Under the pieces are notes generated by a model, which saw only the letters and a list, made by a program, of their open reading frames with translations, was not told the DNA's origin and made no database searches. Positions 3,277 to 64,000 of a stretch of DNA of 64,000 nt are shown one piece after another (the first letter of the stretch is position 1; each line of letters opens with the position of its first letter). A program made the position numbers and the translations under genes. This DNA is from a virus, in the IMG/VR virus record IMGVR_UViG_3300043410_001917, positions 1-64,000 of that record. One strand, written 5' to 3'.

Positions 3277-3903
3277 ATGATAAACACTATTAAACATGAA
3301 ATGTGGTCAACACCTATATGGATTGCTGACACAGGTTTTGATAAATATTTCAATGATATTATGTTGATGGAATTGAGAGAAGAACGTGACAACAATAGGT
3401 TTGATATCTATAATATATGGAATGTTAAATCGGAAAAGTTGCAAATGGTGAAGGAGAAATTGTTAGAATTACACAAACAAGAACTGTTTGAGTATTTGAA
3501 TCAAAATCATCCAGCTGGTTATGAACCATATCTATCAAATGGTTGGTTGAATTATTTTAATACCGGAGAAGGTCTGACTTTACATGACCATGCAGGATCT
3601 TTACTGGCTGCAACATATTATGTAAGTGTGCCAGAAAATTCAGGCGATATATATTTTAATGATCCTAGAGGTGCGGTCGATTGGGATTGGCGCTGTGATG
3701 GAAAAGTTAAATACACTTCCAAGTTAATTAGAATCAAACCAAAAGCGGGCCAAATTATTATGTTTCCTGCATTTCTCTTTCATGGTGTCGAAGAAAACAA
3801 ATCAAATAAACCAAGAATTACAGTTACAACAAATATAATAAATGGAGACATAAAAAACCCTCCAAAAACATTAATAAATAAGCTCTATGATAAACTACTC
3901 TAA
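3277..3903 (+). CDS. putative 2OG-Fe(II) oxygenase (PF13759-like), cassette copy 1
   Basis: A 208-residue protein with the double-stranded beta-helix signature of 2-oxoglutarate/Fe(II) dioxygenases. The proximal motif LHDHAGS (H103, D104, H105) is followed by TYYVSVPENSGDIYFNDPRG, then the distal His in MFPAFLFHGVEEN (H169) and an Arg in KPRITV that would bind 2OG. These enzymes hydroxylate or otherwise oxidise amino-acid side chains or small molecules. It begins immediately after phoH and precedes the Asn/Cys-rich protein by 12 bases, so the likely substrate could be that protein (inference). The N-terminus (MWSTPIWIADTGFD) matches the two other oxygenases in this cassette. Confidence 0.85.
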   Translation: MINTIKHEMWSTPIWIADTGFDKYFNDIMLMELREERDNNRFDIYNIWNVKSEKLQMVKEKLLELHKQELFEYLNQNHPAGYEPYLSNGWLNYFNTGEGLTLHDHAGSLLAATYYVSVPENSGDIYFNDPRGAVDWDWRCDGKVKYTSKLIRIKPKAGQIIMFPAFLFHGVEENKSNKPRITVTTNIINGDIKNPPKTLINKLYDKLL

Positions 3904-3915
3904 AACGGAATAAAA

Positions 3916-4323
3916 ATGACCACGCCAACCTCAGGTGCGATATCCTTCTCCAATGTTAATTCTGAAACAGGCCTTGCTGCTGGTGGAGCTTCTTCCAACA
4001 TGAGTTGGGTTAAGGACAATTCGAAAACCAGTGTTGGTGGAAGCACCGGTGTAGTCAAAGACATGGGTTCATTATACAATAAGGCCTATTATCAAAACAA
4101 TATGGGTGGTGCTTGTAATAATGGTAACTGCACCAATCAATGTAATTGTGGTAATATAAATTGTAATAATTGTGTTATTAGTGGAACTGTAAATTGTGCT
4201 AATTGTGACACTCAAAAATATTTACAACCAAATTGTAATTGTAATTGCACATATAATTGCACTACCACGACCACCTCATACAATTGTAATTGTGATTGTT
4301 GGATTTGTGCTTGCACTTGGTAA
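3916..4323 (+). CDS. Asn/Cys-rich protein, candidate substrate of the radical SAM maturase
   Basis: A 135-residue protein in two parts. Residues 1-66 are Ser/Gly/Thr/Asn-rich and start MTTPTSGAISFSNVN, the kind of N-terminus seen on virion or tail-associated proteins of marine T4-like phages. Residues 67-135 contain 17 Cys and 17 Asn in 69 residues, and 12 of the Cys follow Asn directly (NC dipeptides, e.g. CNCNCTYNC, YNCNCDCWICACTW). No signal peptide or known domain is seen. The gene sits 27 bases before a radical SAM/SPASM maturase, the classic order for a modified peptide and its enzyme. Alternatives are a metal-binding (metallothionein-like) protein or a disulfide- or thioether-stapled virion decoration. 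Confidence 0.75.
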   Translation: MTTPTSGAISFSNVNSETGLAAGGASSNMSWVKDNSKTSVGGSTGVVKDMGSLYNKAYYQNNMGGACNNGNCTNQCNCGNINCNNCVISGTVNCANCDTQKYLQPNCNCNCTYNCTTTTTSYNCNCDCWICACTW

Positions 4324-4350
4324 TTTAATACATTAATTTATAGGATAATT

Positions 4351-5790
4351 ATGAAATTTGAGATTCTTGCTGAACACTATACTGGTGATAGAAAAACATT
4401 CATTTATGACAATGAAACGAATATACTATCAACTGAAGATGGATTTGTTTTTGAATATCCAGAAATTAAACAACACAATCTAAAAGAAACTAAACCATTT
4501 TCAAAATATGATCCTTTAAAAAAATCAAAAGATATTACACTTATTAAGATTCAATTAGGATTATCTTGTAATTACACTTGTGATTATTGTTCACAACGTT
4601 TTGTTGAACGTCCACCAGAAACATCCAAAAAAGACATTGAAGATTTTATGAAAAAATTGGAAGTGTTGAATATAACTGAAGAACGTGGATTGCGTGTTGA
4701 ATTTTGGGGTGGAGAACCTCTTGTTTACTGGAAAACCTTAAAACCTTTAGCTGAAGCAATTGCTGAAAAATTTGGTCATTGGAAAAATAAACCAAGCTTT
4801 GGTATGGTAACTAATGGTTCACTTTTAACAAGAGAAATTTGTTCTTGGTTGTATTATATGAATTTTGGTGTTGGCATTAGTCACGATGGACCAAATCAAG
4901 ATGTTCGTGGACCAGATCCATTTGATGATGAAAACAAAAAGAAAATTATATTAGAATTTTATAAAATTATGAAAACACAAAATCGTATTAGTTTTAATGC
5001 GATGATGAATGCTAAGAACACGAACAGAAAAGAAATTAGAGATTGGTTTATTGCACTAACTGGTGATAAAGATGTTCCGATTGGAGAAGGTGGTATGATT
5101 GATGCATATGACGATGCGGCCGTATCATTATCAATTTCAAGTAAAAGTGAACATTTTGAATATAGACGAAATGCTTTCAATGATATACACACAGAAGGTA
5201 AAGAATTAAATTTTGTGTCGGTTCTTAGTAAAGTGGATGATTTTGTAAATCGTCTATTAAACCACATTGAATCAAAATATGTTGGTCAAAAATGTGGGAT
5301 GGAAAATGAGGACACAATTGCTCTTGACCTGAAAGGTAATATTGTCACTTGTCAAAACGTTTCAATTGTAGAAAATAGTAAAAATGGTGAACCACATTAT
5401 GGTGGCAACTTGGAAGACTATGACAATGTTCAATTAACATCTGTTACACATTGGAAAAATCGAGTGAGTTGTGGTGATTGTCCTGTATTACACCTATGTA
5501 AAGGTTCTTGTATGTATTTGGATGGCCATCATTGGGATGTAACTTGTAATTCTGCATATAGTGACAATGTAGTTTCTTTTGCGATTGCAATTTCCAGAAT
5601 AACAAATGGTTATATTCCTGTTACAATCAAAGCAGAAGGTTTACCCCTAGATAGACAAGATATTTGGGGAACAGTATATGAACACAAAGAAGAAACAACA
5701 AAGAAGATTATTCCTATCAAATTTGTTGCTGAAAAAATTGGCATGATTGACGATGTTGAGGTTTACGGTAAAACAACAGTAGGAAGTTAA
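4351..5790 (+). CDS. radical SAM/SPASM-domain peptide or protein maturase
   Basis: A 479-residue enzyme. The radical SAM cluster motif CNYTCDYC (C73, C77, C80) is followed by FWGGEPL (119-125). The C-terminal SPASM domain has the full seven-Cys pattern: C315, C334 (preceded by Gly at minus 5), C374-x2-C377-x5-C383-x3-C387 and C399. This is the auxiliary-cluster arrangement of maturases such as anaerobic sulfatase-maturating and sactipeptide/ranthipeptide enzymes, which modify Cys, Ser or other residues of a peptide. No sulfatase is nearby, while an Asn/Cys-rich protein is encoded just upstream. The first 60 residues could contain a substrate-recognition part, but I cannot show that. The gene is more AT-rich than phoH. 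Confidence 0.93.
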   Translation: MKFEILAEHYTGDRKTFIYDNETNILSTEDGFVFEYPEIKQHNLKETKPFSKYDPLKKSKDITLIKIQLGLSCNYTCDYCSQRFVERPPETSKKDIEDFMKKLEVLNITEERGLRVEFWGGEPLVYWKTLKPLAEAIAEKFGHWKNKPSFGMVTNGSLLTREICSWLYYMNFGVGISHDGPNQDVRGPDPFDDENKKKIILEFYKIMKTQNRISFNAMMNAKNTNRKEIRDWFIALTGDKDVPIGEGGMIDAYDDAAVSLSISSKSEHFEYRRNAFNDIHTEGKELNFVSVLSKVDDFVNRLLNHIESKYVGQKCGMENEDTIALDLKGNIVTCQNVSIVENSKNGEPHYGGNLEDYDNVQLTSVTHWKNRVSCGDCPVLHLCKGSCMYLDGHHWDVTCNSAYSDNVVSFAIAISRITNGYIPVTIKAEGLPLDRQDIWGTVYEHKEETTKKIIPIKFVAEKIGMIDDVEVYGKTTVGS

Positions 5791-5791
5791 A

Positions 5792-6502
5792 ATGTCTGAA
5801 CATTTAAACAATAACATAGAAATATTAAAAAAAGTATCCGGATGTAATGTTGAGTTGGTGAATATACCACCTCTAATAAAATCGCAAATTGATGTTGAAA
5901 GTGTGATGTTTAAATTTACAAAAAAGGGTAGAGTAGTAAATTTAATAATTCCATCTATATCTGCTGATTTCGACCACAGGTCTACAAATACACATGAAAA
6001 ATCAGAAGATTTTTTATATGCTGTTAAACAAATAATGTCAATTTTAGAATCTAACAATCAAGATGAAATTATAAAATTAAAAACTGAAATGCGAGGTGGT
6101 GGCCACGATGCACCTTGGCCAGAAATTTTGTGGCCATTATCTTTTTTTATTGACACTTCAACACATAGAATTATTATTATGAGATATGTGTATCTTGTTA
6201 CCGAATATGACGAGTGTTTATCATTATTGGTTGAAGGATTAAAAAAAATTGAAGGTGTTGTAAAAGTAGAAGTGAGAAAACGTTTAGAAGATAAAGATAA
6301 TGATGTATATTTTATTAGTTGCCACATTGATGATTTGATTTATCCTGGTATAACCAACTCTATGGTTGATTGTCATTCAGATGTTGAAACACATGAAATG
6401 ATAATTCAAAATGTCATCACAACGATACACAGTAACAAAATTAGAAACACAATGATGAATGATAGTATGCATTTTAACGAGGAAATTCATACACAACAAT
6501 GA
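5792..6502 (+). CDS. unknown protein of the modification cassette
   Basis: A 236-residue soluble protein that starts one base after the radical SAM stop and ends ten bases before the second oxygenase. It has no signal peptide, no Cys cluster and no recognised catalytic motif. A central stretch (MRGGGHDAPWPEILWPLSFF) stands out, followed by an alternating beta/alpha region (IIIMRYVYLVTEYDECLSLL) that could be a ferredoxin-like or RRE-like fold. Position between modification enzymes suggests a partner such as a recognition or scaffold protein, but that is inference. Confidence 0.7.
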   Translation: MSEHLNNNIEILKKVSGCNVELVNIPPLIKSQIDVESVMFKFTKKGRVVNLIIPSISADFDHRSTNTHEKSEDFLYAVKQIMSILESNNQDEIIKLKTEMRGGGHDAPWPEILWPLSFFIDTSTHRIIIMRYVYLVTEYDECLSLLVEGLKKIEGVVKVEVRKRLEDKDNDVYFISCHIDDLIYPGITNSMVDCHSDVETHEMIIQNVITTIHSNKIRNTMMNDSMHFNEEIHTQQ

Positions 6503-6512
6503 GATAATATAA

Positions 6513-7178
6513 ATGAAATGTGAAAATATTTTTGGTTTTCCTGTTGTTAGGATAAACTGTGAAGATGAATTAATATATAAAAATGAAGAATTAACTAAGA
6601 GTGTTAATTTCGTTTTTAATTCAAACCGTGTTATTTACCGTGATAGGTCGCTAAAAGGTGATTCACATAAAGGTGGTGGTTTAACTACTGCAAGTGAAAG
6701 TTATCTTTCTATCGTGGAACTTCCTGGTGCTCAACCACTAAAGAAATGGGTGAGCGAACAATTCCTAAAAGTAAAAGATACGATGGGTTGCACATACAAA
6801 GGTGACTCAATTTATTTCAAAAGAAGTTGGGCCAATCGTTTATATCGTGGCGGCCACGGATTGGTTCACAACCATGCCAAAATCGACAACTTCATATCCC
6901 AAATGACTGACTATGCCCGTAAGGATTTTAATCCTGATGCAGTTGGAATACTCTATGTTGATGTTCCAGAAAGTTCATCCAATCTTGTTTTTATTAACAA
7001 TGGTAGAACCCAAACCTGGATTGATGAGTATGATGAACTTGACACACACTGGATTACACCGATTGAAGGACAACTTGTGATACATCCACCAGAACTATGT
7101 CATGCTGTGAGTATTCATCATAACAATCTTCCACGTAATGTTTTTGTGTTTGATATTGATTATGTTGATGAAGAATGA
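6513..7178 (+). CDS. putative 2OG-Fe(II) oxygenase, cassette copy 2
   Basis: A 221-residue protein of the phage 2OG-Fe(II) oxygenase type. It begins MKCENIFGFPVVRINCED. It has SWANRLYRGGHGLVHNHAK, where HNH supplies the proximal metal ligands, then ILYVDVPESSSNLVFINNG, the distal PPELCHAVSIHH and NVFVFDIDY near the end. The proximal motif is HxH rather than HxD, as in several PF13759 proteins. Base composition here (one sampled line is 40 percent G+C) is closer to the phage backbone than to its AT-rich neighbours. It overlaps copy 3 by 11 bases. Confidence 0.75.
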   Translation: MKCENIFGFPVVRINCEDELIYKNEELTKSVNFVFNSNRVIYRDRSLKGDSHKGGGLTTASESYLSIVELPGAQPLKKWVSEQFLKVKDTMGCTYKGDSIYFKRSWANRLYRGGHGLVHNHAKIDNFISQMTDYARKDFNPDAVGILYVDVPESSSNLVFINNGRTQTWIDEYDELDTHWITPIEGQLVIHPPELCHAVSIHHNNLPRNVFVFDIDYVDEE

Positions 7179-7701
7179 AAATCTTTTTGCTACTCCAATC
7201 TGGACACACAAACTAGATAAAGAAACAAATGATAATATTAAACAAGAAATTGTTAATTATCAGAAAAACACTAATCTGTTTGACTCGGATACCACTGGTA
7301 TCAAAAAACTAAAAAATACCATTGTTGAAGCATACGATTCTATTGCCATCGACCACCATTTTATGCGATACTATGGTGAAGTACATGGTCGACTAAATGT
7401 AATTGGTTATGGTGTTTGTGATACACCACATAATCATATTGGTAAAATGCTTGTTGGTGTTTACTATGTGCAGGTTGGTGAAAATACAGGTGATATTTTG
7501 TTACATGACCCAAGAGGTGGAGTCAACTGGCAGAATTTAAATTTTGATCCACAAGAAAAAGATCCTAATAAAACTTGTAGAACATATCATAGAATTAAAC
7601 CTGAAAATGGTTTCTTAATTTTGTTTCCTAGTTATTTGGTTCATTCTGTTGAAACAAATCTTAGTCAAGAAGATAGAATTTCTATCGTAATTAATATTTA
7701 A
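7168..7701 (+). CDS. putative 2OG-Fe(II) oxygenase, cassette copy 3
   Basis: A 177-residue protein starting at ATG 7168, inside the end of copy 2. The frame is open upstream to 7138, but MKNENLFATPIW is the conserved start of this family. The body shows the typical PF13759 layout: DTPHNHIGKMLVGVYYVQV with HxH ligands, NTGDILLHDPRGG, then RIKPENGFLILFPSYLVHSVETN with the distal His and DRISIVINI with the 2OG-binding Arg. It closely parallels copy 1, including the DPRG turn, so 1 and 3 look like paralogues. Substrate unknown; the context suggests a modified peptide or virion protein. Confidence 0.85.
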   Translation: MKNENLFATPIWTHKLDKETNDNIKQEIVNYQKNTNLFDSDTTGIKKLKNTIVEAYDSIAIDHHFMRYYGEVHGRLNVIGYGVCDTPHNHIGKMLVGVYYVQVGENTGDILLHDPRGGVNWQNLNFDPQEKDPNKTCRTYHRIKPENGFLILFPSYLVHSVETNLSQEDRISIVINI

Positions 7702-7710
7702 GGAACATAT

Positions 7711-9240
7711 ATGAAATTTATAGTTGTTGGTGGTGGAACTTCTGGTTGGTTGACCGCATTATTCACACGAAAAATTTTCCCTGATGCAGAAATAAAAGTT
7801 ATTGCCAGCAGCGAAATTGGTATACTTGGAGCTGGAGAAGGTTCGACACCGCAATTCCCACAATTTTTAAAAAGAATTGATATTTCACCATCCGATATCA
7901 TCAAAAATGCAAAAGGCACACTTAAAAACGGAATCAAATTTACAAATTGGAACGGTGATGGTGAACACTATTATCATGGATTTCAAGACAATTTAGATTA
8001 TCTGAAAAAAACAAATTACAACTATCGTGCTGAATATCTAAACAAAATTAAAAATAATAAATGTTTGGATGATTTACATTTAACTCCATATATTTCTGAA
8101 CAAAAACAAGTAAAATATAGGAAAGATACAAATGAACCTGTTGGCCAAGATTCACTACATTTCGATGCAAACTTATTAGCCAAATATTTACAAAGTGTTG
8201 CATTTCAAAGAAACATTGAATTGATTGATGATGAGGTTGTGGGTATCAATACACATGAAGATAATTACATTAAATCATTGACATTAAAGAATAAGGGTGA
8301 AGAAACTTTAGATTTTGTTTTTGATTGCACAGGATTTAGACGATTAATCATTGGTGATTTTTATAAAACCAAATGGAACTCATACAAAGACAAGTTACCA
8401 ATGAATCGTGCTATGCCATTTTTTATTCAAAATGAAGGTGAACAATTACCTCCATATACAGAATCTATTGCAATGAAATACGGTTGGATTTGGAAGATTC
8501 CTGTTCAGGGTAGATATGGGTGTGGTTATGTGTTTGATTCTAGTTTCGCTAGTGATGAAGAAATCTTGCAGGAAATCAGAGATATGTTTGGAGACGATGT
8601 TGTTAGCCCAAGAACGTTTAGTTTTGATGCAGGTTACTATGACAAAGTTTGTGTTAATAATTGTATTGCCGTTGGTTTATCATCCGGTTTTGTTGAACCT
8701 TTGGAAGCCACAAGTATTTGGGTTCAAATTGTCGCACTAACTCAATTTGAATTTAGTAGAAACGAAATATTAACCCGCAATCAAAAATACATTGATAATT
8801 ATAATCAAACATTAAAATCAATAAATCAATCAGTATTGAATTTTATATATTTTCACTATTTAACTCCACGTAATGATAGTAATTTTTGGAAAACATTTAG
8901 AGAAAAAAATCAAGTTCTACCTTTCATTGAAAAACTGAGTGAAATTTGTGAGGAAAATATTCCTGAAAAAGAGGTTTATGAATATCTTACATCAATGGAA
9001 AATGTTCGAATTGGTTGTCAAAATGTTTCAGATACAAATATATTTTCTAGAGATAGTTGGTTACAGGTTGGTTCTGGCATTCGCTTCTTTAGTAAAGATA
9101 TTGCCGCCAAGGAATTTGAACAAAACTTTAAATATTATAAACCAAGTTTAGATATGATTGAATTACATAAACAAAACAATTTGGATCTATTAAAACATAA
9201 TCAACATTTACAAAATATAAAAGAGAAAAATAATGTCTGA
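7711..9240 (+). CDS. tryptophan-halogenase-like FAD-dependent protein
   Basis: A 509-residue flavoprotein with all hallmark motifs of flavin-dependent tryptophan halogenases (PF04820). The FAD-binding VGGGTSGW is at residues 6-13 and IGILGAGEGSTPQF at 36-49. The lysine corresponding to the catalytic Lys of PrnA/RebH is K72 in TLKNGIKFTNW. The halogenase signature WIWKIP lies at about 259-264, and SSGFVEPLEATSIW carries the conserved Glu. Length matches the family. Known members chlorinate or brominate free or carrier-bound Trp or other aromatic compounds, and also peptides. Substrate here is unknown, but the upstream Asn/Cys-rich protein has two Trp in its tail. It overlaps the next gene by eight bases. 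Confidence 0.88.
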   Translation: MKFIVVGGGTSGWLTALFTRKIFPDAEIKVIASSEIGILGAGEGSTPQFPQFLKRIDISPSDIIKNAKGTLKNGIKFTNWNGDGEHYYHGFQDNLDYLKKTNYNYRAEYLNKIKNNKCLDDLHLTPYISEQKQVKYRKDTNEPVGQDSLHFDANLLAKYLQSVAFQRNIELIDDEVVGINTHEDNYIKSLTLKNKGEETLDFVFDCTGFRRLIIGDFYKTKWNSYKDKLPMNRAMPFFIQNEGEQLPPYTESIAMKYGWIWKIPVQGRYGCGYVFDSSFASDEEILQEIRDMFGDDVVSPRTFSFDAGYYDKVCVNNCIAVGLSSGFVEPLEATSIWVQIVALTQFEFSRNEILTRNQKYIDNYNQTLKSINQSVLNFIYFHYLTPRNDSNFWKTFREKNQVLPFIEKLSEICEENIPEKEVYEYLTSMENVRIGCQNVSDTNIFSRDSWLQVGSGIRFFSKDIAAKEFEQNFKYYKPSLDMIELHKQNNLDLLKHNQHLQNIKEKNNV

Positions 9241-10777
9241 TTGTATTATTATAGGTGATGGAGTAGGTCATGCAGAAGATTTTAGTAGGATACAGAGAAG
9301 TCTAGGTGCATATAGAGTTGCTTCAGAATTAATAGAAAAAGGTTATTCAACATTCGTTTTTGATTTTATTAATGAATTCACTTTGAAAGAAATATTTGAT
9401 GTTTTAGATAAACACCTGAATGAAAAAACTTTGTGGGTAGGATTCAGCTCAACATTTTTTTGGCCGATAGGATACCAAGAAGATTTGCAAAATGTTCTGA
9501 ATAATAAAATTGAACATGAACATTCTTCTTTGAATTTAATGTATTGGAAAAATTACACTTTTGTTAAAAATATAATCGAATATATAAAAAGTAAAAGTAA
9601 GGCAAAAATTGTATATGGTGGTGCAAAAACTCCTTACACATTGATTGATAAGAATGTGGATTATTATGTTTTGGGTTATGCTGATGTGACAATTTTAGAA
9701 TTGACAGATTTCTTAGCAGGAAAAAAACAATCCATTGAACATATTGAAGAAGTAGAAATTGATGGTGTAAAGAAATATAAAATAGATTCTTTCAAGTATG
9801 CAGAACCAAGAATGGATTCCATTTCAACAAGTTGGTGGCGTAAAGAATTTAATATATTGCCTGCTGAAAGTTTACCAATTGAAACTGGTCGAGGTTGTAT
9901 TTTCAAATGTAAATTTTGTTCCTTTCCTTTACTTGGTAAGAAAAAAGGAACATATACTAGGTCTTGTGGTATAATAAGAGAAGAATTGATAAAAACATTT
10001 GAGACAACAGGAACAACTTCCTTCTACATCACAGATGATACATTTAATGATGACAATGATAAGATGGAAGAATTTCATAAAATGTTTACCAGCCTACCAT
10101 TCAAACCAAAATTAACTGGTTATTTGCGATTGGATTTGATAAACAAATACACACATCAAGCAGATTTGTTGTCTGAAATGGGTTTTGTTGGTGCTTTTTT
10201 TGGTATAGAAACATTACAACCGGAAAGTGCTAAGAGTATAGGTAAGGGATTGCATCCTAATAAGGTGAAAGATAGATTATATTGGCTCGCAGAAAAGTGG
10301 AAAAATAAAATAAATGTTACTTCCGGTTTCATTCTTGGTTTACCATACGATACCACAGATTATTTTGATGAATTATTTAATTGGTCTTTAGAAGATGACA
10401 ACCCTCTACAAGAGATTATTTTTTATCCATTGAAGTTATTCAATAATAAAACTAATAAAGAATTGGATAGATATAATTCCGAGTTTGCTATAAATCCAGA
10501 AATATATGGTTATGAATTCAATACGATAACTGATTGGAGATTACCATCACAAAAATTAGATTATAATATGTGTAAAAACATTGCAGAATATTATAATAAT
10601 ATTAGGGGACCAAAAAATAAAATTTCTTCATTCACTATGCACACTATGGCAAATTTAGGTGTATCATACGATGATATGTATAAATGCACACAAAATGAAT
10701 TGTTAAATAGATATAACTTTGAAGAATTGAATAGATTGAAGATTGAAGAATATAAAGGATTGATTTTGAATGTTTAA
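9233..10777 (+). CDS. B12-binding-type radical SAM protein
   Basis: A 514-residue protein whose first 190 or so residues resemble a cobalamin-binding Rossmann domain (opening VASELIEKGYSTFVFDFINEF and VYGGAKTPYTL), followed by a radical SAM domain. The cluster motif is CIFKCKFC (C222, C226, C229) after ETGRG, with YITDDTFNDD and FFGIETLQPESAKSIGKGL typical of this class. The classic B12-binding DxHxxG is not obvious, so cobalamin use is uncertain. Such enzymes methylate unactivated carbons or catalyse other radical steps on peptides and lipids. It starts within the halogenase gene and overlaps the exonuclease gene by eight bases, so the cassette ends tightly coupled to the replication genes. 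Confidence 0.85.
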   Translation: MSDCIIIGDGVGHAEDFSRIQRSLGAYRVASELIEKGYSTFVFDFINEFTLKEIFDVLDKHLNEKTLWVGFSSTFFWPIGYQEDLQNVLNNKIEHEHSSLNLMYWKNYTFVKNIIEYIKSKSKAKIVYGGAKTPYTLIDKNVDYYVLGYADVTILELTDFLAGKKQSIEHIEEVEIDGVKKYKIDSFKYAEPRMDSISTSWWRKEFNILPAESLPIETGRGCIFKCKFCSFPLLGKKKGTYTRSCGIIREELIKTFETTGTTSFYITDDTFNDDNDKMEEFHKMFTSLPFKPKLTGYLRLDLINKYTHQADLLSEMGFVGAFFGIETLQPESAKSIGKGLHPNKVKDRLYWLAEKWKNKINVTSGFILGLPYDTTDYFDELFNWSLEDDNPLQEIIFYPLKLFNNKTNKELDRYNSEFAINPEIYGYEFNTITDWRLPSQKLDYNMCKNIAEYYNNIRGPKNKISSFTMHTMANLGVSYDDMYKCTQNELLNRYNFEELNRLKIEEYKGLILNV

Positions 10778-62773: not shown

Positions 62774-63143
62774 AATGGCAGCAGTAAACGTAGTCAATGT
62801 AACAACAATTTATGGTAAAACGGTAGCAGCAAATTTAACCTCTACCTCGGCCACAAGCATTGTAAGTAATGCTGCAAGTTCATCGACACTAATTAAAATT
62901 AATACTTTGAATATTACTAACACAACAGGAACAGCAGTTACAGCAACCATTTATTGGAATAATGGTGCCAATCTTACTGGAACTTCATTTAATATTCTCA
63001 ACACCAGTGTTCCTCCAAACAGTGCATTGACAGCTATAGACAAAAACGCTCCTTACTATTTGGAAGAAGGCCAAAGTATAGGTGTAACAGCTGCTACAGC
63101 TAATACATTTATTGTTACTTGCAGTTATGAGGTAATCAGCTAA
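62763..63143 (+). CDS. small beta-sandwich fibre accessory, paralogue of 52388
   Basis: A 126-residue protein. LIKINTLNITNTTGTAVTAT, IYWNNGANLTGTSFNIL, VPPNSALTAIDKNAPYYLEE and QSIGVTAATANTFIVTCSYE show the alternation of a beta-sandwich, and its order matches the protein at 52388. It follows a FANGAF fibre in the same way, suggesting the same role in fibre structure. TAATG links it to the next gene. Confidence 0.7.
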   Translation: MEDKMAAVNVVNVTTIYGKTVAANLTSTSATSIVSNAASSSTLIKINTLNITNTTGTAVTATIYWNNGANLTGTSFNILNTSVPPNSALTAIDKNAPYYLEEGQSIGVTAATANTFIVTCSYEVIS

Positions 63144-64000
63144 TGTCCCAAAACGGTGGTATTAGAGGTCCTGGTCAAATAGTTACGTCAACCGCACCAG
63201 CAAAAAAAGCCAATCTTAGTGAAGCACAACAATATTCTTCTCTAGGAAATTGGCCAGGTTTGATATTTTATCAAAATTATTCCACACCTGGAACCTATTC
63301 ATTCACTTCACCAATCGATGGCAATATTTCTTATATGGCTATCGGCGGTGGCGGTGGCGGTGATAATGGAAATGTTGGTGATGGTGGCGGAGGCGGTGGC
63401 GGTGGCGGCGGTTGCATATATGCTTCTAATGTTGCTGTGAGTGTTGGTGATATATTAACTATTGTTGTTGGTGCTGGTGGATCTGGACCAGCAACATACA
63501 ATTCAGATTCTAATCCTGGTGGAAATAGTTCAGTCACTTTAACTCAAACCGGAAAAACAAATTTTGTCATAACAGCTCAAGGTGGTTATGGTGGCAAAAC
63601 TTATCCAGCTGGAGTGAGTTTAGGTGGAATGTATGATTATACAGCATCATACAACAACGGAACTGTAGCGGGCGGAAGCAATAAAGTTCTAGGAACATAT
63701 GCCGGCGGTGGCGGCGGCGCTGGATACAATGGCGGTGGAGGTGGCGGCGGTGCTGCAAGTGCAGGTGGTAACGGTGGTGGCGGCATAGGTTCAATTGGCA
63801 CAAATGGTGCTGGAACAATTGGTCCTACCGGTGGCCAAGGTGGTGCTGCAAGTACAACTGCAAGCGCACCAAGTAGTGGCGGCGGCGCAGGAGGTTCAGG
63901 TCAACATGATATAACAGGCGGCGGTGGCGGAGGAGGATATACGTATAGTTCCTCAGTACCAACAACAGCCGGCGGCAATGGAAATGGACTTACAACCAGC
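63143..64000 (+). CDS. glycine-rich fibre tip or adhesin (runs off the window)
   Basis: The frame starting at ATG 63143 (TAATG with the previous stop) is open to the window end, 286 codons. The N-terminus MSQNGGIRGPGQIVTSTAPA precedes a domain with WPGLIFYQNYSTPGTYSFTS and DGNISYMAIGGGGGGDNGN. It continues with runs such as GDGGGGGGGGGGC and later GGGGGAGYNGGGGGGGAASA, typical of Gly-rich tail-tip proteins and of the polyglycine sandwich of T4-type gp38 adhesins. It probably determines host range. The long GGC/GGT tracts also raise copy-number instability. The 3' end is not in the window. Confidence 0.8.
   Translation, partial: MSQNGGIRGPGQIVTSTAPAKKANLSEAQQYSSLGNWPGLIFYQNYSTPGTYSFTSPIDGNISYMAIGGGGGGDNGNVGDGGGGGGGGGGCIYASNVAVSVGDILTIVVGAGGSGPATYNSDSNPGGNSSVTLTQTGKTNFVITAQGGYGGKTYPAGVSLGGMYDYTASYNNGTVAGGSNKVLGTYAGGGGGAGYNGGGGGGGAASAGGNGGGGIGSIGTNGAGTIGPTGGQGGAASTTASAPSSGGGAGGSGQHDITGGGGGGGYTYSSSVPTTAGGNGNGLTTS

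Follow-up and report, generated by a model that had tools for sequence, protein, structure and literature searches.

An Asn/Cys-repeat protein and its linked radical SAM/SPASM enzyme as a candidate phage system for the modification of tail-protein tips

What is the role of a small phage protein whose C-terminal part abounds in Asn-Cys dipeptides? The question is raised by ORF 3916-4323 (+ strand), which translates into a 135-aa protein (hereafter, NC protein) and lies in the window, that is, the whole 64,000-nucleotide stretch of the viral record IMGVR_UViG_3300043410_001917 that was analyzed. An earlier note on this DNA had proposed that the protein is a modification substrate of tail or virion type, possibly carrying a halogenated Trp. 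This core proposal withstood all comparative tests described below. We consider it probable that the locus encodes a RiPP-like, phage-borne system for the modification of tail-protein tips, in which the NC protein would be the substrate, a radical SAM/SPASM maturase would staple its NC stretch, and tailoring enzymes would finish the tip.

The NC protein and its gene block

Alignments divide the NC protein into two parts. The N-terminal part, residues 1-66 (3916-4113, + strand), presumed to be the tail-type or leader part, begins with a motif common to the family, MT[LT]PxSGxIxxSD. The remainder, residues 67-135 (4114-4320, + strand; ending ...NCNCDCWICACTW), is recognized by composition and alignment as an Asn/Cys-rich tail and is presumed to be the modified stretch. 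Its 69 residues include 17 Cys, 17 Asn and 12 NC dipeptides, and Trp occupies positions 129 and 135, the latter being the last residue of the protein; the counts given in the earlier note were thus reproduced. Upon shuffling of residues 67-135, the mean number of NC dipeptides was 4.19, and 12 or more were reached in 0 of 200,000 shuffles, whereas CC dipeptides are absent (0 observed versus 3.2 expected). The pattern is common to the family: across 61 members (90% non-redundant), 791 of the 1061 Cys residues are preceded by Asn, which accounts for 25% of the region, and the tail carries the conserved motif DxxxWLQxNCNCxCTYNC. This family-wide motif rules out chance or a simple DNA repeat as the origin of the pattern.

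The NC protein of the window matches no Pfam, PHROG or NCBIfam model, and its N-terminal part, taken separately, matches no PHROGs or Pfam model. A hand-typed consensus of residues 1-66 produced zero matches in 50,697 phage records, a tblastn search of the phages collection with the NC protein gave no match, and the predicted structure is poor (pLDDT 52). The view that residues 1-66 look like a phage structural start thus has indirect support at most: no family model matches them, but relatives fuse the same start to tail-fibre domains (see below).

The neighboring genes, all on the + strand, encode a series of putative modification enzymes. Directly upstream of the NC gene is a 2OG-Fe(II) oxygenase (3277-3903; PF13759, 74 bits, cut-off 27), and 28 bases behind it starts the gene for a radical SAM/SPASM enzyme (4351-5790; PF04055, 40.5 bits, cut-off 29.5; phrog_1802, E 1.9e-63), the presumed maturase of the NC protein. 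This is followed directly by a companion (5792-6502; iterated profile search, E 8.7e-46) without a Pfam match, which consists of a ~100-aa unit repeated here in tandem; the same unit occurs after the maturase in loci of the Trp and Gly-Gly types, and single units are present in L031 and L089. Next come two more 2OG-Fe(II) oxygenases (6513-7178, PF13759, 29 bits; and 7138-7701, PF13759, 69.6 bits; cut-off 27), both possible tailoring enzymes. The listed start of the second overlaps the preceding gene, and the true start is likelier the ATG at 7168. The block continues with a flavin-dependent tryptophan halogenase (7711-9240; PF04820, 328 bits, cut-off 21) and a second radical SAM protein (9233-10777; PF04055, 50.7 bits), also a possible tailoring enzyme, which scores 14.3 bits with a B12-binding model (below the cut-off of 32.1) and possibly binds cobalamin. 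The NC gene is located close to phoH and an exonuclease gene, outside the tail-gene block; tail and fibre genes lie further along the 67,330-base record, as judged by ORF lengths and starts. Separately, positions 63140-64000 of the window encode a Gly-rich, fibre-adhesin-like stretch, and a similar Gly-rich part is fused to the NC stretch in L021 and L103.

Linkage of NC proteins and maturases in both search directions

A protein search of viral contigs with the radical SAM enzyme of the window yielded six loci, all six with an NC protein directly upstream (L005 and L006 share an identical protein). When the conserved core, NCNCxCT[Y/F..]NC, was used as a DNA pattern, 96 stretches were retrieved. 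In the 101 rows of the motif search (window copies excluded; several represent the same contig fetched twice or near-copies), a maturase is encoded on the same strand in 95 cases and no more than 100 bases away in 86, and in the 6 rows without a maturase the contig ends on the side where relatives carry it. At the 90% level, 61 of 96 NC proteins with a complete start are non-redundant; a second non-redundant count is 127 of 220. A second pattern, CxCxC before the Hint start FPAGT, matched 17 stretches; together with Achromobacter phages JWF and 2-1, a maturase was found in 14 of 19 rows, and the remaining rows are either truncated shortly after the gene or, for L111 (a one-residue ORF), a chance match. 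One candidate for a Hint fibre without a maturase, L118, was dropped: its locus stops 2053 bases behind the gene and therefore gives no verdict on linkage, the maturase of its relative L115 starting 1984 bases behind.

For the reverse search, an alignment of 18 maturases was compared with contigs of viruses and bacteria, the NC motif playing no part. Relatives numbered at least 587 in viral and 106 in bacterial contigs, and the best 80 of each were examined (79 of the viral ones were new). Under a fixed rule for NC-type ORFs (three CxC within 40 residues or five NC; ORF length at least 40), an NC/CxC ORF was present in 71 of 79 viral loci (from the best 80 of at least 587) and, on the bacterial side, in 60 of the 80 best loci out of 106. 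Reading by eye, which added 4 viral and 6 bacterial loci and removed 2 doubtful bacterial matches, brought the numbers of loci with an NC-type protein among these best 80 of each to 75 of 79 and 64 of 80, respectively; no NC stretch was seen in the other 4 viral and 16 bacterial loci, part of which are short or cut. By comparison, the fixed rule gave 3 matches in 1.65 Mb of shuffled loci and 5 in 124 kb of control phage DNA, all of the latter being antisense ORFs of 43-56 aa in the window. The bacterial maturase loci include Limnohabitans, Polynucleobacter, Burkholderia, Magnetospirillum and Roseobacter-type genomes, and the maturase gene lies before or behind the NC gene, depending on the locus. 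L233 and L240 were discarded as NC loci, their sequence being without NC, and in L131 (~4939) the NC tail ...ACACWICACACW occurs only in a stop-broken frame, with intact copies in L129 and L130.

Thus, the NC protein and the maturase are linked in both search directions. Homologues without a linked maturase, named in the earlier note as evidence against the proposal, are not what is seen, nor is the maturase-free arrangement of a metallothionein, the maturase being linked to the NC protein throughout.

Tail-protein context and accompanying enzymes

In 74 representatives the NC stretch is terminal, and in 66 of these at most two residues follow the last Cys. Elsewhere it is followed by a Hint domain, an S74 domain or a domain of about 165 residues and unknown fold, 'type b', which is found in 42 of 84 viral representatives. 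Behind the NC stretch, Hom_end_hint scores above the cut-off in JWF, 2-1 and L089 and below it in L038, L108, L112 and L113, and other Hint models match L271 and L279 below the cut-off. The S74 chaperone domain is above the cut-off in L023 and L143, both of which read ...C-F-W directly before the S74 start. S74 and Hint domains of tail fibres are self-cleaving, S74 domains cutting themselves off near a conserved Ser, and such cleavage in L023 and L143 would expose a C-terminal Trp.

In other relatives, the NC stretch forms the C-terminal part of tail-fibre proteins of 300-600 aa, and tail-fibre or gpJ-like genes lie upstream of the three bacterial loci inspected (L257, L226 and L214). The tail-fibre and self-cleaving domains of the relatives support the suggestion that the protein is of tail type. 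As it is the relatives that carry the tail domains and context, while no domain matches the NC protein of the window itself, the phage-tail setting is strong for the relatives, and for the window protein we infer it from them.

Several other genes recur in these neighborhoods. A protein of the c45 group (270-320 aa, 22-36% identity) adjoins the NC gene in prophages and in phages of the NCNCNC type (for example, L214 4375-5229, L226 4575-5387 and L019 6391-7353; no Pfam match for those of L019 and L214). Prophage genes of ~200 aa between the NC protein and the maturase encode PF13759-like 2OG-Fe(II) oxygenases scoring below the cut-off (L246 5183-5812, L257 4349-5998, L226 5387-5941). In type-b loci (L014, L016, L017 and others), the maturase is upstream, and an Asp/Asn beta-hydroxylase and small genes are downstream; seven type-b loci have a fatty-acid desaturase upstream.

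The type of tail matches the set of accompanying enzymes. Of the 64 viral representatives whose downstream flank extends for 3.9 kb or more, 17 combine a C-terminal Trp with a halogenase, 47 have neither feature, and none has one without the other (ends read after removal of Hint, S74 and type-b parts; halogenase at 40% identity or more). Five of the 17 loci (L129, L143, L148, L150 and L196) are outside the set from which the idea was generated. The Fisher values, 1.9e-7 for the idea-generating data and 7e-16 for the pooled data, both ignore relatedness. The maturase tree, from which L178 (truncated at its 5' end) and L283 (lacking a maturase ORF that passed the filter) were omitted, shows two changes for Trp and two for the halogenase, and its well-supported branches contain one independent pair. 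Because the match sits on only one or two branches, the Fisher value cannot be taken as a sign of repeated co-evolution. The bacterial locus L283 has a Trp end and no halogenase within 9.2 kb. The suggestion of a halogenated Trp is therefore upheld insofar as Trp goes with the halogenase in viral loci, but is qualified by the one or two branches and by this exception.

The presumed target of the window halogenase is the C-terminal Trp of the NC protein. The enzyme contains the GxGxxG, WxWxIP and K.G..F motifs, the first two of which are also present in 12 of 13 neighbors of its cluster, and resembles PrnA, RebH and VirX1 (6qgm, 4.6e-52). L208 carries a halogenase and no NC ORF, its contig starting 25 bases before the maturase. 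Sub-threshold halogenase relatives (21-24% identity) are encoded in NCNCNC-ending loci, such as L066, L185 and L189; that of L066 (1173-2357, - strand) matches the Trp_halogenase model but is without GxGxxG and WxWxIP. A relative of tryptophan halogenase was also noted in L190. Among isolated phages, the best halogenase match (42.8%) is in Pelagibacter phage HTVC008M (L125 6983-8377), where it lies amid head and tail genes in a stretch with no annotated radical SAM gene.

Two other tail types show comparable matches. A Gly-Gly end and the c28 protein are both present in 6 viral representatives and both absent in 24; Gly-Gly without c28 was found in bacterial loci L210, L248 and L278, and c28 without Gly-Gly in L209. 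In the Gly-Gly-ending loci L005, L021, L049, L103, L104 and L203, c28 (245 aa) is located behind the maturase, as is, flank permitting, a PP-loop protein with an SGGIDS motif (Pfam sub-threshold). The Asp/Asn beta-hydroxylase (in L034, PF05118, 30.9 bits, cut-off 22.6) accompanies 30 of 30 type-b representatives versus 0 of 73 others, a match that counts as one event because type b is one clade.

Predicted chemistry and comparison with known systems

The maturase has the hallmarks of a radical SAM/SPASM enzyme. In a comparison of 57 relatives (31-73% identity to the window enzyme), the radical SAM motif CX3CX2C (C73, C77, C80) and GGEP (G120-P123) are invariant, as are the SPASM positions C315, G329, C334, C374, C377, C383, C387 and C399; the SPASM pattern, C..GX4C, CX2CX5CX3C, C, comprises seven SPASM-type Cys. 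None of the NCBIfam models shown is matched at its curated cut-off; the highest score is that with the ranthipeptide maturase PapB (NF047865; 81.1 bits, cut-off 340). The solved folds closest to its AlphaFold2 model (pLDDT 93.3) are CteB (Z 23.3), which is a thioether-forming enzyme, ChlB (20.1), anSME (19.4) and TigE (18.5), and the epimerase EpeE is also among the fold matches (Z 12.4). No RiPP recognition element (RRE) was recognized in the maturase and no PqqD-type Pfam model matched it; residues 1-57 of the model form strands and no helices.

Asn directly precedes Cys in 75% of viral and 67% of bacterial cases, and it stands three places before Cys in 36% and 42%, respectively, against Asn backgrounds of 24% and 17%. 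The latter spacing is that of NxxcA, in which, according to the excerpted text of PMC8326336, Cys23 is joined to the C-beta of Asn20 by a thioether. In excerpts of PMC9413430, PapB is described as joining Cys in vitro to Asp or Glu with zero to six residues between. On the strength of the Asn spacings and the NxxcA and PapB precedents, Cys-Asn thioethers would be the likeliest product and, provided that the NC protein is a substrate, a rather likely one. The precedent originally invoked needs a correction: a Cys-Asn link does exist, but it is that of NxxcA, whereas freyrasin joins Cys to Asp (PMC8326336, excerpted text).

It is unlikely, though worth weighing, that the same enzyme acts on the same substrate through other radical chemistry, be it epimerization or oxidation of the alternating repeat, or C-C or other links. 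The dipeptide periodicity would suit a residue-by-residue epimerase, placing, for example, D-residues at every second position, and EpeE is among the fold matches; however, CteB and the other SPASM folds score far above EpeE, and both Cys and Asn are conserved, with CC avoided. Furthermore, proteusin epimerases are described in the excerpted part of PMC8326336 with a radical SAM cluster only, whereas the maturase keeps the SPASM Cys. We regard as improbable the explanation that the Cys-rich end binds metal or forms disulfides while the radical enzyme serves another target in the gene block. CxC-rich ends are usual metal ligands, and the poor model of the NC protein is compatible with this explanation, but phages and prophages keep the NC stretch and the enzyme linked even where their maturases share as little as ~30% identity and gene order varies, and metal binding needs no pattern in which 75% (viral) of Cys follow Asn. 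Slighter still is the chance of a free, diffusible phage-coded RiPP, such as an antibacterial peptide with residues 1-66 as a cleaved leader, for although the leader-core layout, maturase, halogenase and oxygenases resemble RiPP gene clusters, Pfam, PHROG and NCBIfam scans revealed no protease or exporter among the genes at 3277-10777, and the relatives are C-terminal parts of fibre proteins or precede Hint/S74 fibre-maturation domains.

In the mechanism that we infer for tail-tip modification, a tail-type protein would carry the C-terminal Asn-Cys stretch as substrate, and the maturase would bind it and work along the stretch, joining Cys sulfur, most likely, to carbons of nearby Asn to give a stapled tip. 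Which further phage enzymes complete the tip would depend on its last residues: in the window phage, the flavin halogenase would halogenate the C-terminal Trp, and hydroxylation of residues may fall to the 2OG-Fe(II) oxygenases. For genes that continue past the NC stretch, self-cleavage of the Hint or S74 domain would probably leave the modified stretch at the tip of the tail protein in the virion. Our preferred guess is that such a tip probably serves as a rigid, protease-proof contact with the host surface.

More tentatively, and with somewhat more doubt than confidence, we envisage a combinatorial virion-tip chemistry of tailed phages and prophages, in which radical SAM stapling would be shared, interchangeable enzymes (halogenase, Asp/Asn hydroxylase, PP-loop protein, 2OG oxygenases and B12-type radical SAM proteins) would each be suited to particular terminal residues, and release of the finished end would fall to a Hint or S74 domain. 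If this holds, viruses would finish receptor-binding or tip proteins with natural-product chemistry otherwise used for peptide antibiotics, and at least one group of viral halogenases would gain a concrete natural substrate class. It would also offer new stapling enzymes for long repeats, hint, as read from the genes, at a reason for tips to resist proteolysis and to pierce or grip hosts, and explain the presence in lake and sea phages of radical SAM, 2OG oxygenase and halogenase genes now filed as auxiliary metabolic genes. In excerpts of PMC7029224, PMC8407142 and PMC10452541, halogenase and radical SAM genes of phages are classed as accessory or metabolic. Searches of an open-access library yielded no description of the NC protein/maturase system. 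The chemistry is probably of a known type; for a virion-tip substrate, we know of no counterpart.

Among known systems, ranthipeptides (PapB/freyrasin, NxxcA, CteB/SCIFF) likewise pair a radical SAM/SPASM enzyme with an adjacent Cys-rich substrate, and CteB provides the closest fold. They differ in that the substrate here is a phage tail-type protein with NC repeats rather than a secreted peptide, that the window maturase falls under all NCBIfam cut-offs with no RRE found, and that the bond is a predicted one. SrpI/SrpE and MibH resemble the window locus in that a flavin halogenase is accompanied by a neighboring peptide with a Cys...Trp end; in the excerpted text, SrpI brominates the C-terminal Trp of the core LCCCW (PMC10858898). 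Here, in contrast, the genes are phage-coded, the substrate is paired with a radical maturase instead of a YcaO enzyme, and the activity is predicted. VirX1 of cyanophage Syn10 belongs to the same enzyme family as the window halogenase; the review table in the excerpt of PMC8407142 gives no natural product for it. Unlike the window, the stretch of Synechococcus phage syn9 homologous to that of VirX1 (L127 5467-8572) encodes two tandem halogenases behind tail-fibre genes and no NC ORF, and none of the eight neighboring proteins read ends in Trp; the substrate of the syn9 halogenases may be another tail protein. Finally, the self-cleaving fibre domains, the S74 intramolecular chaperone and Hint, are found directly behind the NC stretch in some relatives, with the difference that cleavage in these proteins would expose a modified peptide end.
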